Assembly: GCF_016403105.1 (NCBI RefSeq) | Contig: NZ_CP046155.1 | Location: forward strand, 1,860,001 to 1,924,000 | Length of the DNA stretch: 64,000 bases | Reading direction: 5' to 3' | DNA from: Leptolyngbya sp. BL0902 | GTDB lineage: Bacteria; Cyanobacteriota; Cyanobacteriia; Phormidesmidales; Phormidesmidaceae | Shown here: positions 3,320 through 36,495 of the stretch, one piece after another | How the letters are laid out: each line of letters starts with the position of its first letter | Position numbering within the stretch: the first letter of the stretch is position 1 | Notes under the pieces: generated by a model | Seen by the model: the letters and a program-made list of their open reading frames with translations, nothing else | Told to the model about the DNA's origin: nothing | Database searches by the model: none | Made by a program: the position numbers and the translations under genes

Positions 3320-5872
3320 CTACTGAATCCGGCAGGTTAGCTCATTGCCTAGGCCAAAGTCCCCGTCGGCGTATTCCGTGAGGGTGATGGGCAGGGGCGA
3401 GGCTTTCCAGATGCCGTTGCAGTAGTCGCGGACGGAGCGGTCGGAGGAGAACATCCCCATACGAATGGCGTTGAGGATGGCCATGCGTGTCCAGCTATCG
3501 GTGTGGCTGTAGGCCTCGCCCACGGTGTGCTGGCAGTCGAGGTAGGACTGATAATCCGCCAACAGCAGGTAGGGGTCTTGGTAGAGCAGTTTGTCGAGCA
3601 GGGGCTTGAACAAGCCACCGTCCCCCTGGGAAAAGTGGCCGGAGGCAATCAGGTCGATGGCGTCCTTCAGCAGGGGGTTGGCCTGGTAGTAGGCGTAGGG
3701 GTTGTAGCCCTGGGCCTTGAGATCCACCACCTGGTCGGCGGTGAGGCCAAACAGGAAGAAGTTGTCGGCCCCCACGGCATCGCGGATTTCGACGTTGGCC
3801 CCATCCAAAGTGCCGATGGTGAGGGCACCGTTCATGGCGAATTTCATGTTGCCTGTACCGGAAGCTTCGTAGCCAGCGGTGGAAATTTGTTCGGACAAGT
3901 CCGAAGCGGGGTAGATGCGCTGGCTGTTGGTGACGTTGTAGTTGGGCAGAAAGATCACCTTCAGCTTGTTGTGCAGGTCGGGATCTTTGTTCACCATGTC
4001 GCCCACGGCGGTGATCAGCTTGATCATCAGCTTGGCCATCCAATAGCCCGGAGCCGCCTTGCCCGCAAAGATGAAGGTGCGGGGGGTGATCTCCAGATTG
4101 GGGTTTTGCTTGAGCTGGCTGTAGAGGGTGACGATGTGCAGCACGTTGAGGTGCTGGCGCTTATATTCGTGGATGCGCTTCACCTGCACGTCGAACAGGG
4201 AGGCGGGATCGACCAAAATGCCGAACTGATCGTGGATGCGGCTGGACAGATCCCGTTTGACGGCCTGTTTGATGTCGTGCCACTCGTCGCGAAAACCGCT
4301 GTCGTCGGCGAGGGGTTCGATCTGCTTCAGTTCGTCGAGGTGCTTGATCCAGCGGTCGCCAATGCGGCTGGTAATCAGGGTGCTGAGGCGGGGGTTGCTG
4401 AGCACCACCCATCGACGGGGAGTAACGCCGTTGGTGACGTTGCAGAATTTTTCCGGGAACAGTTCGTAGAAATCCCGCAGAACGGTTTGCTTCAGCAATT
4501 CACTATGCAGGGCCGCGACGCCGTTGATGGTATGGCTACTCACGCAGGCCAGGTTCGCCATCCGCACGTAGCGCTCGCCGCTTTCGTCAATCAGCGACAT
4601 CCGCGCCAACCGTCCGGCATCCTTGGGGAACTTCATCCGCACCAGTTCCAAAAAGCGGCGGTTGATTTCGTAGATGATGTCCAAATGGCGGGGCAGCAGC
4701 TTGCCGAAGAGGCTGATCGGCCATTTTTCCAGGGCTTCGGGCAGCAGGGTGTGGTTGGTGTAGGCGAAGGTTTTTTGGGTAATTTCCCAGGCCAGCGTCC
4801 AGTCGAGACCGTGCTCATCCAGCAGCAGGCGCATCAGTTCCGCCGAGGCAATGGCGGGGTGGGTGTCGTTGAGCTGAATGGAGAATTTTTCGTGGAACTT
4901 CTCCACGGGCAAACCCTGCCCCGCCAGGATGCGGAACATATCCTGCAAGGAACAGGAGACAAAGAAAATCTGCTGCTCTAGGCGCAGTTGCTTCCCGGCC
5001 TGGGTTTCGTCGTTGGGGTAGAGCACCTTGGTCAGGTTCTCGGAGGAGACCTTTTTCTCCACCGCGCCGTAGTAGTTGCCCTGGTTAAACACCTCAAAGT
5101 CAAAGGATTCGACGGCCTCGGCCTTCCACAGGCGCAGGGTGTTGGCAGTGTTCACCTGGTAGCCCAGGATCGGCGTGTCGTAGGGAACGCCTAGCACTTC
5201 GCGCTCCGGCACCCAGCGCACCCGATAGCGGCCTTGGTCATCGGTGTAGGTTTCCGTATGTCCGCCAAATTTCACTTCCACCGCCCACTCAGGACGCACC
5301 ACCTCCCAGGGGTTGCCGTTGCGGAGCCATTTGTCGGTGCGCTCCACCTGCCAGCCGTCCTTAATATCCTGGTGAAAAATGCCGAACTCGTAGCGAATCC
5401 CGTAGCCCAGGGACGGAATTTCCAGGGACGCCATGGAATCCAGATAGCAGGCCGCCAGCCGTCCCAAGCCGCCGTTCCCCAGCCCCGGTTCCTCCTCCTG
5501 GGCCAGCAACTCATCAAAATCCAGACCCAGTTCTTCAATCGCCTGCTTCACCTCGTTATAAAGGCCCAGGTTAATCAAGTTATTGCCCAGGTGTGGCCCC
5601 ATCAAAAATTCCGCCGACAGGTAGCACACCGTCCGCGCCCCGGCCTGGGTATAGCGCTCGGCGGTGGTGTTCCATCGGTGCAGCATCCGATCTCGCACCA
5701 GGTAGGCCAGGGCCATGTAGTAATCGTGCTGGGTGGCCAAGGCGACGGGCTTGCCCTGTACAAAAAACAAATTGTTCAAAAACGCCCGCTTAATGCTGTC
5801 AATGCTGGAACCCGTGCGTTCTCCAGCCAGGGCAATGGCGACAGCGGCATCGGTGGTGGCAGTGTTGTCCAT
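3320..5872 (-). CDS. glgP: Glycogen phosphorylase
   Basis: The 850-residue protein matches the usual length of bacterial alpha-glucan phosphorylases. It releases glucose-1-phosphate from glycogen chain ends using phosphate. The pyridoxal-phosphate lysine lies in EASGTGNMKFAMNGALTIGT, and the glycine-rich GNGGLGRLAACYLDS region near the N-terminus is the conserved catalytic/structural segment. Other family motifs such as QLNDTHPAIA and VKRIHEYKRQHLN are intact. The ATG at 5872 gives a normal N-terminus. It is likely monocistronic, with its own terminator about 110 bases downstream. The window also carries glgA and a phosphorylase-kinase-like protein, so both directions of glycogen metabolism are represented. 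Confidence 0.97.
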   Translation of the reverse strand: MDNTATTDAAVAIALAGERTGSSIDSIKRAFLNNLFFVQGKPVALATQHDYYMALAYLVRDRMLHRWNTTAERYTQAGARTVCYLSAEFLMGPHLGNNLINLGLYNEVKQAIEELGLDFDELLAQEEEPGLGNGGLGRLAACYLDSMASLEIPSLGYGIRYEFGIFHQDIKDGWQVERTDKWLRNGNPWEVVRPEWAVEVKFGGHTETYTDDQGRYRVRWVPEREVLGVPYDTPILGYQVNTANTLRLWKAEAVESFDFEVFNQGNYYGAVEKKVSSENLTKVLYPNDETQAGKQLRLEQQIFFVSCSLQDMFRILAGQGLPVEKFHEKFSIQLNDTHPAIASAELMRLLLDEHGLDWTLAWEITQKTFAYTNHTLLPEALEKWPISLFGKLLPRHLDIIYEINRRFLELVRMKFPKDAGRLARMSLIDESGERYVRMANLACVSSHTINGVAALHSELLKQTVLRDFYELFPEKFCNVTNGVTPRRWVVLSNPRLSTLITSRIGDRWIKHLDELKQIEPLADDSGFRDEWHDIKQAVKRDLSSRIHDQFGILVDPASLFDVQVKRIHEYKRQHLNVLHIVTLYSQLKQNPNLEITPRTFIFAGKAAPGYWMAKLMIKLITAVGDMVNKDPDLHNKLKVIFLPNYNVTNSQRIYPASDLSEQISTAGYEASGTGNMKFAMNGALTIGTLDGANVEIRDAVGADNFFLFGLTADQVVDLKAQGYNPYAYYQANPLLKDAIDLIASGHFSQGDGGLFKPLLDKLLYQDPYLLLADYQSYLDCQHTVGEAYSHTDSWTRMAILNAIRMGMFSSDRSVRDYCNGIWKASPLPITLTEYADGDFGLGNELTCRIQ

Positions 5873-6372
5873 GGATGGGTAGACCTTAGGCTCCGAATAA
5901 TTGCAGTAACGGACGGTATGACGTGCCGAGCACGAACGACAAGCGACTATACCCTATCAGATCAAAGTCAGAACGCAAGGATTGTGGCCTAGGGCACGAT
6001 TTAATTTAAGTTTAAGGGGATGGACTCATCTGACCTCGTGGAAGCAGAAACGGCCCAGACTCACCCTGATTGACTGACAAAACTTGCTCAAACCTACATC
6101 TGCTAAAGGGTCAGGAAACCTGTCCCCCACATAAACCCAGGGCTGTAGGGGCGCAGTTTTCGCGCCCGAATCAGAAACTTTTGTCTGTCAACCAGAGCCT
6201 CACCTGCAATCGGGCATTTTCCAAGAGCTAGAACGATGAAAATGCGAGATGATTTTCCTGCGATTTCTTACTGGCCCTAGACCAATCCTTGTAACCTGCT
6301 GGCTGTGCCCAAATAAACCTCTCCTCTCCGCAAAATTGGCTATGGTAATGGGTGCTGTTTTACCCCGTGGCC
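5873..6372. other. Divergent intergenic region, glgP / ion channel
   Basis: About 500 bases separate the divergent glgP and channel genes. The stretch must contain both promoters, but I could not pick out convincing -10/-35 pairs. It is interrupted by a 130-bp mobile element at 6066-6195. Nothing else with coding character was seen. Confidence 0.6.
6066..6195 (+). mobile_element. 130-bp MITE-like element, copy 1
   Basis: A non-coding element with imperfect terminal inverted repeats: the left end CTGATTGACTGACAAAA matches the complement of the right end TTTTGTCTGTCAACCAG at 15 of 17 positions. It is flanked by a 9-bp target duplication with one mismatch, AGACTCACC (6057-6065) and AGCCTCACC (6196-6204). 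Inside are two small hairpins (GGTCAG/CTGTCC-type, and GGGCGC/GCGCCC). A second copy of exactly the same length, inverted, is at 26729-26858; a hand alignment gives 112 of 130 identical. It is too short to encode a transposase, so it must be mobilised in trans by an unidentified enzyme. Confidence 0.85.
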
Positions 6373-7806
6373 ATGACGCCCCCCTCTCTCGCCCCTTCCA
6401 TGCAGCAGCGGGTGGATCGTGCCCTCCACTCGCCCACCATCGAGTTCATGCTGATTGGGCTGATTTTGGCCTCAGTGCTGTTGGTTTTTATTGAGGTAGG
6501 GTTGCCCTTTGGCAGTGGGGGCCACGGGGTAGTCGTAGGGCTTCAACGCTGGCTAACCGGGGCGTTTTGGCTAGAACTAGGACTGCGCGGTTGGGCAGCC
6601 CGGAATAAACAGCGCTTCCTCAAGCATTACTGGTGGGATATTCTGGCGGTAATTCCCTTCCCCACTCAGATTGTGGTGCTACGGCTGTTGCGGCTGCTGC
6701 GGCTGCTGCGGGTGGGCATTTTGCTAAACCGCAACCTAGGCCGAATTTACCCCGCCCTCGCCATTGGTCTGGGAGCGCAGATTGGCCTAGTAGCTATCCT
6801 GGGAGTGCTGCTACTGGGGGGTGGCCTGGGTATTTTTCTGGCTGAAGGGGGCATCAACGACGACATTGAAAACCTGCCCCAAGCCCTGTGGTGGAGCCTG
6901 TTTACCCTTGTTGCCGCCGAGCCGATTGGGGCCGAACCCGTTACTCTGGTGGGGCGCATCCTGACGCTGATGGTGATGCTGGGCGGGCTGACCCTGTTTG
7001 CGGTGATTACAGGGCTAGTGTCAGCGGTGATGGTACAACGACTGCGATCCACCATGGAGTATCGGACGATGGCCCTGGACGAACTGAGAAACCACACGGT
7101 GATCTGCGGCTGGAACCGCAACGGACGCCACATCGTTGAAGAGTTGCTGTTTGACGGCGGCTTGCAGGACAGCCCGATTTTGATCATCGCCGAATTTGAG
7201 GAAACCCCAGAACGGTCGTTGCGTCACCTCAACCTGTCCCACATTTATTTCCATGTGGCCGACTACACCCGCATCGACGTGCTCAAATCCATCAACATTG
7301 CCCAGTCCGCCCGCGCCATCCTATTGGCCGACACCACCCGCCCCCGCAGCGACCAAGACATCGACGCCCGCACCGTCCTCGCTGCCCTCACCATCGAAAA
7401 AATTAACCCCGCCATCTACACCTGCGCCCAACTGCTCGACCGCCGCAACGACGTCCAACTCAAGGCGGCGGGAGTAGATGACGTGATCGTGGCCGACGAA
7501 GTGACCAGCCACATGATCGCCACCTCCGCCCGCACCCAAGGCTCAGTGGAGGTGATGGCCGAACTGCTCACAGTGCAAGTGGGCAATCAGTTCTATAAGG
7601 TGCCCATTCTCCCCTCCTGGGTGGATCTCTCCTTTTGGCAGGCGGTAGATCGCCTCAAACGATCCCACGATGCCTTGCTGGTGGCCGTAGAACTGAGCTA
7701 CCCCAATCGACACACCTTGGTCAATCCCCCCGCCAACTATCGCCTTGGCCCCAAGGATCAACTCATCGTCATCGCCCGCAAACGCCCAGAACTGAGGGAC
7801 TATTGA
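6373..7806 (+). CDS. Ion channel with RCK/TrkA-N domain, atypical filter
   Basis: A 477-residue protein (ATG at 6373 preferred over the GTG at 6352). It has a voltage-sensor-like layout: hydrophobic helices, then an arginine-rich S4-like RLLRLLRLLRVGILL, another helix, a pore loop and a last helix, followed by an NAD-binding TrkA-N (RCK) domain starting HTVICGWNRNGRHIVEELL and a C-terminal TrkA-C-like part. This order is typical of prokaryotic K+ channels gated by cytosolic ligands. The pore loop reads LFTLVAAEPIGAEPVT (about residues 175-190) and has no GYG-type K+ selectivity filter. Ion selectivity is therefore uncertain; the family call rests on the overall architecture. It probably forms a single-gene transcript. 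Confidence 0.75.
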   Translation: MTPPSLAPSMQQRVDRALHSPTIEFMLIGLILASVLLVFIEVGLPFGSGGHGVVVGLQRWLTGAFWLELGLRGWAARNKQRFLKHYWWDILAVIPFPTQIVVLRLLRLLRLLRVGILLNRNLGRIYPALAIGLGAQIGLVAILGVLLLGGGLGIFLAEGGINDDIENLPQALWWSLFTLVAAEPIGAEPVTLVGRILTLMVMLGGLTLFAVITGLVSAVMVQRLRSTMEYRTMALDELRNHTVICGWNRNGRHIVEELLFDGGLQDSPILIIAEFEETPERSLRHLNLSHIYFHVADYTRIDVLKSINIAQSARAILLADTTRPRSDQDIDARTVLAALTIEKINPAIYTCAQLLDRRNDVQLKAAGVDDVIVADEVTSHMIATSARTQGSVEVMAELLTVQVGNQFYKVPILPSWVDLSFWQAVDRLKRSHDALLVAVELSYPNRHTLVNPPANYRLGPKDQLIVIARKRPELRDY

Positions 7807-25647: not shown

Positions 25648-26628
25648 GTGGCGATTAACATTGGCATGGTAGGAACGGGCTTCGTTGCTCAGCGGCGGGC
25701 AGAAGCCTTGGCGGTGGATGGACGGGGGCGACTGGTCGCGGTGACAGGGCACCATCCAGAGGATACCCAGACCTTTGCCCAAACTCACAGGGCTACCGCC
25801 GTGGCAGACTGGCCCAGCCTCATCTCCTGGCCAGATCTGGAGGTGATTATAGTCAGCCACGTGAATTGCGACCACGGGATGGTGGTGCGCGCAGCCCTGG
25901 AGGCAGGGCGACATGTGGTGGTAGAGTATCCCCTCGCCCTAGACTGGCGTGAGGCCGAACGCTTAGTAACCCTGGCCCAACAGCAACAGCGCCTGCTCCA
26001 TGTGGAGCACATCGAGGTTTTAAGCGGCAATCATCAAGCCCTCAAGGCCAACCTATCCGCCCTTGGTATCCCGCTCCATGTCCGCTACGTCACCCTTTCG
26101 CCCCAGCGTCCCGCCCCAGATCGGTGGACCTATCAACCCGATTTGTTTGGGTTTCCCCTGGTGGGTGCCCTCTCCCGTGTCCATCGCCTGGTGGATGCCT
26201 TTGGCCCTGTAGCCCAGGTATCGGGTCAAAACCAATATGACGGCTGGTCAGAGAATCCTGACACCTTACCCCGCTATCGCACCAACCTCTGTGCGGCGCA
26301 AATCACCTTTCAATCGGGCGTTCAAGGGGAACTGCTCTACGGCAAAGGAGAAGCCATTTGGCAGGCGACGCGACGGCTGGAGGTCATCGGCACCCAGGGC
26401 CAAATCCACATCGACGGCGACACAGGTCAGGTGATCACCGCTGAGGGCACCACACCTCTCGAAATTGGGTCTCGCCGAGGTTTGTTAGCCGCCGATACCC
26501 GCGCCGTGTTAGATCACCTCTGCCAAGGCACCCCTCTATATCTCACCCCTGCAGAAAGCGTTTACAGCCTGCGAGTGGCCAATGCCATCGCCACCGCCGC
26601 CCAAACCGGGCAAGTGGTCAAACTCTAG
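25648..26628 (+). CDS. bvdR: Biliverdin reductase
   Basis: A 326-residue Gfo/Idh/MocA-fold oxidoreductase. The nucleotide loop is MVGTGFVAQRRAEAL. Features recalled from the cyanobacterial biliverdin reductase are present: VVVEYPLALDW, LLHVEHIEVLSG, RWTYQPDLFGFPLVGALSR and SRRGLLAADTRAVLDH. The enzyme reduces biliverdin to bilirubin and affects phycobiliprotein levels. The start is GTG at 25648, the first codon giving the full Rossmann strand. It is divergent from spkB with a 176-base gap that holds both promoters. Confidence 0.85.
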   Translation: MAINIGMVGTGFVAQRRAEALAVDGRGRLVAVTGHHPEDTQTFAQTHRATAVADWPSLISWPDLEVIIVSHVNCDHGMVVRAALEAGRHVVVEYPLALDWREAERLVTLAQQQQRLLHVEHIEVLSGNHQALKANLSALGIPLHVRYVTLSPQRPAPDRWTYQPDLFGFPLVGALSRVHRLVDAFGPVAQVSGQNQYDGWSENPDTLPRYRTNLCAAQITFQSGVQGELLYGKGEAIWQATRRLEVIGTQGQIHIDGDTGQVITAEGTTPLEIGSRRGLLAADTRAVLDHLCQGTPLYLTPAESVYSLRVANAIATAAQTGQVVKL

Positions 26629-26914
26629 CTCGACAGGACATAACGAGGGCACTTTGACCTGTGATGTGGGGCAGAGGTCGTTATGGATGCCCTCAGACTT
26701 CAATGAAGTCCTACTCAGTCTTGGCTGGCTGGTTGACTGACAAAAGATTCTGCTTCGGGCGCGAAAACCGCGCCCCTACCGCATTGGATTCATGTAGGGG
26801 TCAGGTTTTCTGACCCTTTGACGAATGTAGGTTTTCGCAAGTTTTGTCAGTCAATCAGCTTGGCTGGGGCGAGGGCGGGGGATGACGTGATATCGATGTT
26901 CTGCATCTGGTTGT
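26629..26914. other. Intergenic region with MITE inserted in a duplicated fragment
   Basis: The gap after bvdR holds no gene. Bases 26700-26728 and 26868-26907 together match the region 28032-28100, the 5' end of the 89-residue gene at 27833-28102; the match is split by the 130-bp element at 26729-26858. So this is a partial duplicate of a neighbouring gene start that was later hit by the element. Confidence 0.8.
26729..26858 (-). mobile_element. 130-bp MITE-like element, copy 2
   Basis: The same length as copy 1 and in the opposite orientation. Terminal repeats are CTGGTTGACTGACAAAA and TTTTGTCAGTCAATCAG (16 of 17 positions pair). It is flanked by a perfect 9-bp duplication CTTGGCTGG (26720-26728 and 26859-26867). 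The paralogous sequence at 28032-28100 has a single CTTGGCTGG (28052-28060) and no insertion, so the pre-insertion state is directly visible. Confidence 0.93.
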
Positions 26915-27184: not shown

Positions 27185-27595
27185 TTAGCCAGACCATAGA
27201 CGTTCTTCGTAGGCCGCAAATTCCGCAGGCGAAAGGATGTCAACCGATTGAAAAGGGTTGAGCGACAACAGATCCTTATCGCCAGTAACAATACAAACAG
27301 CATTACCAGCAATTGCTGTTCCTAAAACGTTGTCATCATCAGCGTCTCGACAGATCTGAGAGGTGAAGGGAATCGGTTTAACGATCTGGACTCTATTTTG
27401 TAAAAGTATTCTAATAGATTGGGAGTCTTCATCAGAGAGGTTGAACTTTTGCGTCAAATTTCTATGCAGCTCTTGAAGAATGAAATCAGATGCGATCACC
27501 TGATGAGAACGTAGACAATGCTCGACTAGGCGATGACAAACACCTTTGGCGATGAACGCAGCGATCAAGACATTTGTGTCAATTACCAGCTTCAT
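27185..27595 (-). CDS. PIN-domain toxin (COG1569-like)
   Basis: A 136-residue PIN ribonuclease. Acidic active-site residues are visible in MKLVIDTNVLIAAFI, FILQELHRNL, RDADDDNVLGTAI and IVTGDKDLLSL. Such toxins cut RNA unless held by an antitoxin. The start overlaps the stop of the upstream 70-residue gene by 4 bases (ATGA), the usual antitoxin-toxin order. Codon use is more AT-rich than in the flanking bvdR and mfd genes. Confidence 0.87.
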   Translation of the reverse strand: MKLVIDTNVLIAAFIAKGVCHRLVEHCLRSHQVIASDFILQELHRNLTQKFNLSDEDSQSIRILLQNRVQIVKPIPFTSQICRDADDDNVLGTAIAGNAVCIVTGDKDLLSLNPFQSVDILSPAEFAAYEERLWSG

Positions 27596-36358: not shown

Positions 36359-36495
36359 ACCATGCTTCTCGGTACCGCCGCCGAATCTTTTGTCAGCCAG
36401 TCAGACCCCATGGTCTTTGATCGCAGCCTCGTTGACCCTAGAGGCAGCATCGCCAAAGTTTAGGTATTATCTATCAACGCGCATCCTCAATACCT

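Follow-up and report, generated by a model that had tools for sequence, protein, structure and literature searches.

We conclude with high confidence that the 130-bp element occurring twice in the window, a stretch of 64,000 nucleotides of the Leptolyngbya sp. BL0902 genome, is an IS-derived MITE that has the ends of a 1.32-kb IS10-like IS, carries between them a REP-like dimer, probably a captured one, and is probably stranded in this genome. The earlier note on this DNA had described two 130-bp copies with terminal inverted repeats of 17 bp, 9-bp target duplications and two conserved internal hairpins, and direct reading bore out its coordinates and counts (Table 1). The two copies are identical at 112 of 130 bases. 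Their 17-bp ends, CTGRTTGACTGACAAAA, agree at 15 of 17 positions in copy 1 (CTGATTGACTGACAAAA and CTGGTTGACAGACAAAA) and at 16 of 17 in copy 2 (CTGGTTGACTGACAAAA and CTGATTGACTGACAAAA); the duplication has one mismatch at copy 1 and is perfect at copy 2. Both hairpins are present, and their sequence is conserved without compensatory change. The window holds just these two copies at E < 1, and consensus scans revealed neither a promoter nor a terminator at the MITE copies. Elsewhere in the window, a lone end, CTGACTGGCTGACAAAA, lies at 36388-36404 (-); it resembles the right end of the older MITE subfamily and has no detectable core. The PIN-domain-like ORF adjoining copy 2 is possibly a member of a toxin-antitoxin pair.

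Table 1. Features of the two MITE copies, in positions of the window. Names of neighbouring genes were read by eye from the translations.
Feature	Position	Strand	Details
MITE copy 1 (younger subfamily)	6066..6195	+	130 bp
Site of copy 1			intergenic, flanked by two divergent genes, one glycogen-phosphorylase-like (3320-5872, -) and one ion-channel-like (6352-7806, +)
Copy 1, left terminal inverted repeat	6066..6082	+	CTGATTGACTGACAAAA
Copy 1, right terminal inverted repeat	6179..6195	-	CTGGTTGACAGACAAAA
Copy 1, left 9-bp target duplication	6057..6065	no strand	AGACTCACC
Copy 1, right 9-bp target duplication	6196..6204	no strand	AGCCTCACC (8/9)
Copy 1, REP-like unit 1	6108..6130	-	tag GTGG here, GTAG in most copies; 8-bp stem, 3-nt loop
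Copy 1, REP-like unit 2	6145..6167	+	GTAG, 8-bp stem, 3-nt loop
MITE copy 2	26729..26858	-	130 bp, orientation opposite to copy 1
Site of copy 2			intergenic, flanked by an oxidoreductase-like gene (25648-26628, +) on one side and a PIN-domain-like ORF (27185-27595, -) on the other
Copy 2, terminal inverted repeat, element's right end	26729..26745	+	CTGGTTGACTGACAAAA
Copy 2, terminal inverted repeat, element's left end	26842..26858	-	CTGATTGACTGACAAAA
Copy 2, target duplication	26720..26728	no strand	CTTGGCTGG
Copy 2, target duplication	26859..26867	no strand	CTTGGCTGG (9/9)
Copy 2, REP-like unit 1	26794..26816	+	GTAGGGGTCAGGTTTTCTGACCC
Copy 2, REP-like unit 2	26757..26779	-	GTAGGGGCGCGGTTTTCGCGCCC

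The element belongs to a dispersed family. BLAST located 22 copies in the 4.71-Mb genome (six contigs; E values from 1e-62 to 8e-8), and a covariance model built from these 22 copies returned 25 matches spanning all 130 positions (E <= 1.6e-12); the model's table held 12 more rows, which had lower scores, covered part of the element or repeated a listed copy on the opposite strand, and these were not counted. Of the 22 BLAST copies, 14 could be assigned a pair of ends and eight could not. Among the 14, the target duplication agrees at 9/9 positions in seven, at 8/9 in three and at 7/9 or fewer in four, and an additional copy at C1:2005375 has a 9/9 duplication; agreement at 8/9 or better is expected by chance about 1.4e-4 times per site. 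Position 9 of the duplication is G or C at 10 of 10 MITE sites (p 0.004), which suggests a target preference for G/C at the duplication edge. The absence of an open reading frame, also stated in the earlier note, holds for frames of at least 200 aa at 21 of the 22 BLAST copies, and one such frame overlaps the degraded edge of a single copy (L015). Mean identity is 84% among copies L001-L009, which include both window copies, and 68% among the other 13, and in several older copies the right end is shifted toward CTGACTGGCTGAC. The family is not a young one. Searches of plasmids with copy 1 and of phages with copy 2 as the query gave no match to the MITE. Under strict filters, the REP-type MITE was found in seven of 388 genomes, four of them in the genus of the window and three in other families, one of the latter (G035) being a weak match. 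The intergenic region of G002 that corresponds to the copy 1 site has no such end, but does not align with it base for base, and a clean empty site for copy 1 was not obtained.

Two other origins for such a set of copies were considered, namely segmental duplication and a structured RNA gene family, and we attach a negligible probability to either. Copy 2 folds strongly as RNA (z -7.2; copy 1 as DNA, z -2.8), as a structured RNA would have it. However, none of five measures of pairing or covariation within the MITE copies exceeded shuffles and Rfam gave no match at its gathering scores, which both count against a structured RNA. Segmental duplication is ruled out by the unmatched flanks: among the 44 MITE flanks of 300 bp, no similarity was found at E <= 1e-3. 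The presence of target duplications likewise speaks against both. The reading as a non-autonomous MITE proposed in the earlier note is supported: the element is multicopy, has inverted ends and 9-bp duplications, lacks a transposase ORF and shares no flanking sequence between copies.

A partner that would supply the transposase was found in other genomes. It is a 1.32-kb IS10-like IS that has the same ends, CTGRTTGACTGACAAAA, makes 9-bp duplications and occurs in Nodosilinea, Leptolyngbya, Oscillatoria and Pleurocapsa. The earlier note had advised searching the genome for further copies and other sequences for an IS with matching ends and 9-bp duplications, and had named a lack of both, together with duplication of a larger segment, as what would overturn its reading; all three objections fail. 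Allowing one mismatch, we found the 20-bp end in 153 of 388 sampled class genomes, compared to 0 in the rows of the reversed-pattern control. Through a pair of ends about 1.32 kb apart, we found in G109 an IS of 1323 bp with a 9/9 duplication and a 408-aa transposase. A degraded IS of 1317 bp in G302 and a 1325-bp end pair in G286 are without duplication. When 57 relatives were searched with the transposase protein, 41 had a match, although many of these matches were weak or concerned transposases that are more distant. In four genomes of the window's genus the match was nearly full-length, at 74-83% identity (that in G009 has a stop); the elements of these four are 1321-1323 bp long, share the ends at 0-2 mismatches and have 9/9 duplications. 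Across both searches, elements of 1321-1323 bp with 0-2 mismatches per end and 9/9 duplications have an open gene in G109, G025, G016 and G022, and those of the same type in G009 and G027 have one stop in the transposase match, also with 9/9 duplications.

A scan of named genomes yielded 55 loci, among them loci in Nodosilinea nodulosa PCC 7104, Nodosilinea sp. LEGE 07298, Leptolyngbya sp. PCC 7375, Oscillatoria sp. CS-180, Pleurocapsa sp. CCALA 161 and Moorena bouillonii. At 26 of the 55, the two ends, neither with more than one mismatch, lie at a distance of 1316-1361 bp; nine of these 26 have 9/9 duplications and four are interrupted by a contig end. IS lengths are mostly 1316-1330 bp, with some of 1287 or 1353-1361 bp, and the ends are CTG. 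In total, 9/9 duplications were seen at 11 distinct IS insertions, while many loci show none; at three loci (L243, L249 and L305) the duplication appears by eye to be shifted by one base. Position 9 is G or C in 9 of 11 cognate-IS sites (p 0.08). In two Pleurocapsa loci (L229 and L237), AAAAGAT at the 5' end of the IS and AAAACTT at its 3' end match the right and left ends of the MITE, an asymmetry that agrees only in part, as other IS copies differ. Copies with these ends also lie on Acaryochloris and Synechocystis plasmids. The one on pSYSM (NC_005229.1) of Synechocystis PCC 6803 (L304) is a 1321-bp IS with 0 and 1 end mismatches, no duplication and a gene annotated as two ORFs. Two further candidates were rejected: an end pair 1820 bp apart in G053 proved to be two separate MITEs, and solitary 20-bp ends in G038 and G051 were traced to short elements of other kinds or to relics, none leading to a transposase. 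G053 and G141 each have 136 end matches at up to one mismatch (63+73 and 73+63), which amounts to very high element loads.

For the transposase, NF033591 ('IS4 family transposase') was the best NCBIfam model (E 1e-33 to 1e-39), with scores of 117-135 bits that lie below its cut-off of 152. Pfam assigned no family to L108 and PF01609 to L107. Residues D118, D181 and E285, which form a putative DDE triad, do not vary among the 13 transposases aligned, which are of both the cognate and the sister type. In a scan of 26 rows for YREK or YREQ, four of them without motif, YREQ was present in 17 of the 18 cognate-type rows with a readable motif and YREK in the remaining one (L140), two pairs of rows being the same element. 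Carriers of YREQ among the cognate-type transposases include L108, L130, L131 and L223. The sister IS described below has YREK, and so, by eye, does L107. A profile search of PDB sequences returned no transposase, including none of the Tn5 type, at the sequence level. In a tree of the 13 transposases with a long open frame, the ten with cognate ends were separated with full support from the three with ends CTGACTGCCTGACA or near to it. According to De Palmenaer et al. (2008, PMC2266710), members of the IS10-like subgroup of the IS4 family have lengths of 1200-1350, end in CT and make 9-bp duplications, and the partner IS resembles the subgroup as described there in its length of about 1.32 kb, in ends that start with CT, in its 9-bp duplications and in its DDE transposase. 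It differs from the subgroup and the IS4 family in the NF033591 score below cut-off and in YREQ replacing YREK. The partner IS would work like an IS10-type IS4 element, and we leave strict membership open.

The ends of the MITE enclose two hairpins that both fit GTAGGGGnnnGGTYTYCnnnCCC and stand tail to tail, 14 bp apart; outward from the centre, GTAG or a near form precedes each. With up to three mismatches allowed, unit 2 matches the genome at 29 places (0 in the control), of which 18 fall within MITE copies and 11 outside them. At C1:3916999-3917057, two units stand tail to tail with no IS ends around them. A looser REP scan showed no excess (19 compared to 16 in the reversed control; 464 kb). 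Units within and beyond the MITE have this frame in common, and we aligned 55 of 57 of them, omitting two with length changes; an earlier version of 31 units had been hand-picked as fairly intact. In the stem of these 55 units, 53 both-sided changes were counted, a number reached by 0 of 500 shuffles, and the covariation score was far above that of slid pairings, whereas the five covarying pairs were reached by 86 of 500 shuffles and are not unusual. These counts may reflect few independent events, because much of the signal arises where unit 1, unit 2 and the solitary units differ from one another. In the 10 copies whose duplications agree at 8/9 or better, conservation of the REP cores did not differ from that of the ends (0.92 vs 0.89, p 0.45) and exceeded that of the rest of the element (0.92 vs 0.81, p 0.001). 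Across all 22 copies the core is the best conserved part, these copies having been found partly through the core. With its tag, GC-rich stem, short loop and dispersed copies, the filling can be classed as GTAG-tagged and REP-like on form and dispersal, no linkage to a RAYT having been found.

Precedents exist for such units. GTAG-tagged REPs are described with a GTAG tag, a stem of 6-13 bp, a short loop and tail-to-tail dimers, to all of which the MITE hairpins are similar, and in Anabaena variabilis GTAG-15 dimers lie inside long palindromes (Di Nocera et al. 2013, PMC3733652). The available text of that report describes no IS link for the Anabaena palindromes, unlike the MITE here. Our comparison with these REPs, which are grouped there into 24 families, is by description. 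The core also resembles REPINs, described as an inverted REP pair that forms one dispersed unit (Bertels and Rainey 2011, PMC3116915), but differs from them as presented there by its frame of IS ends and 9-bp duplications and by the lack of any RAYT linkage found.

It is highly improbable that a RAYT (a tyrosine transposase) moves the element as what would in essence be a REPIN, with IS-like ends that are incidental. The two GTAG-tagged hairpins in inverted order are compatible with such an origin, a single full-length RAYT-like protein is encoded in the genome (C1:3431227-3432021; 73.8 bits with NF047646, whose cut-off is 80), and GTAG/GTGG-tagged REPs reportedly flank the cyanobacterial RAYTs of subclasses 2.7 and 2.8 (PMC6006769). 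However, the MITE copies start and stop at the IS ends and have 9-bp duplications, and the RAYT locus of this genome is without such a REP. RAYT/IS200-type enzymes are not known to make 9-bp duplications. Among 30 RAYT-like loci, a script that demanded exact GTAGGG found one GTAGGG hairpin, GTAGGGGC in L279, which has another stem. Another hairpin, GTAGGGTGCATYCGCG, occurs at three of the 30 loci (L285, L295 and L300) and GTAGGGTGGGCATTGCCCACC at a fourth (L280); these two are perhaps the REPs paired with the RAYTs there.

We favour capture of a REP-like pair by the IS-derived MITE. In this model, two ends of the 1.32-kb IS10-like IS enclose 96 bp of non-coding DNA. The DDE transposase of the IS would bind the 17-20-bp MITE ends in trans, and the MITE would be cut out and pasted into a staggered cut to give the 9-bp duplication, a cut-and-paste mode expected from the family and an anatomy read from the copies themselves. 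The tail-to-tail, GTAG-tagged pair, dispersed in the genome, would have been caught between the IS ends and would then have multiplied together with them. The opposite direction, in which the core was not captured and the solitary units are fragments shed by old MITE copies, seems rather unlikely to us. One solitary unit (C1:1014028) does have MITE-like neighbouring bases, CTACCTGAATCC, by eye, but the flanks of most of the 11 solitary units differ by eye from the MITE, and the stem pairing CGA/TCG, seen in six of these 11, occurs in none of the 42 aligned MITE units.

The IS-derived part of this MITE is ordinary. Nezha, which Zhou and co-workers reportedly described in 2008, is a MITE of cyanobacteria as well. 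MITEs in general are well known in cyanobacteria (review, PMC10969869), and REPs are known targets of IS insertion (PMC1525189; in Planktothrix, PMC4766695). The filling by a REP-like dimer has a partial precedent in the GTAG dimers of the Anabaena palindromes. We found no description of these end sequences in the literature searched, nor did titles or listings point to a REP dimer within an IS10-type MITE; the scope of that search did not extend to ISfinder or to most subscription papers. Overall, our results name the transposase type for a previously unnamed MITE whose 20-bp end is present in about four in ten of the sampled class genomes, and therefore a large number of intergenic repeats that lack annotation could be classified in one step. 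They also suggest a way, open to testing, in which a DDE transposase could carry REP-like palindromes, the dispersal of which is usually credited to RAYTs.

The same ends also enclose other palindromes. In G053 they surround a CCCTCACCC...GGGTGAGGG palindrome in forms of 110 bp and 153-155 bp, with 8/9 or 9/9 duplications in nine of 12 elements found in 288 kb, about half of the stretches having been picked for holding end matches. In G291, for which we listed distinct elements with duplications of at least 6/9, a GTAGGTTGGGTT...AACCCAACC palindrome forms an element of 141 bp with a 9/9 duplication. The genome of the window has truncated elements that by eye resemble the CCCTCACCC type (C1:762038 and C1:1293925). 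We only tentatively consider that one cyanobacterial IS type might be a general carrier of host palindromic repeats and that its elements favour palindromic cargo. If true, a DDE transposase would have spread REP-type repeats, either in place of RAYTs or alongside them.

No intact cognate IS was found in the genome of the window, just fragments: apart from nine copies of a sister IS at 38-39%, the matches comprise a piece of 27 residues at 74% identity, which is the clearest, some 60 residues at 46% interrupted by stops, and two incomplete matches at 39% and 29%. Therefore, the MITE copies are probably stranded here, or at best served by the resident sister IS, should its transposase accept their ends. 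The nine copies of this sister IS are 1313-1314 bp long, with ends CTGACTGCCTGACA, which are related to the cognate ones but not the same, and 9/9 duplications in eight of the nine. Its transposase is 36-39% identical to the cognate one, and the one copy included in the tree was placed in the sister clade. That the sister IS now moves the MITE, which would then not be stranded, is a minority possibility. The sister IS looks recent, judging by its perfect duplications; it makes 9-bp duplications as the MITE does, and G or C stands at position 9, and indeed at both duplication edges, in eight of eight sister-IS sites. The duplications of the MITE, the sister IS and the cognate IS all tend to G/C at their edges, and the bias at position 9 is significant for the first two. 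Furthermore, five older MITE copies (L010, L011, L013, L016 and L171), all with 8/9 or 9/9 duplications, have a right end that tends toward CTGACTGGCTGAC and is as near or nearer to the sister ends than to the cognate ones. In contrast, copies L001-L009, including those of the window, keep cognate ends, with 0-2 mismatches at 17 of 18 ends compared to 3-6 from the sister ends.
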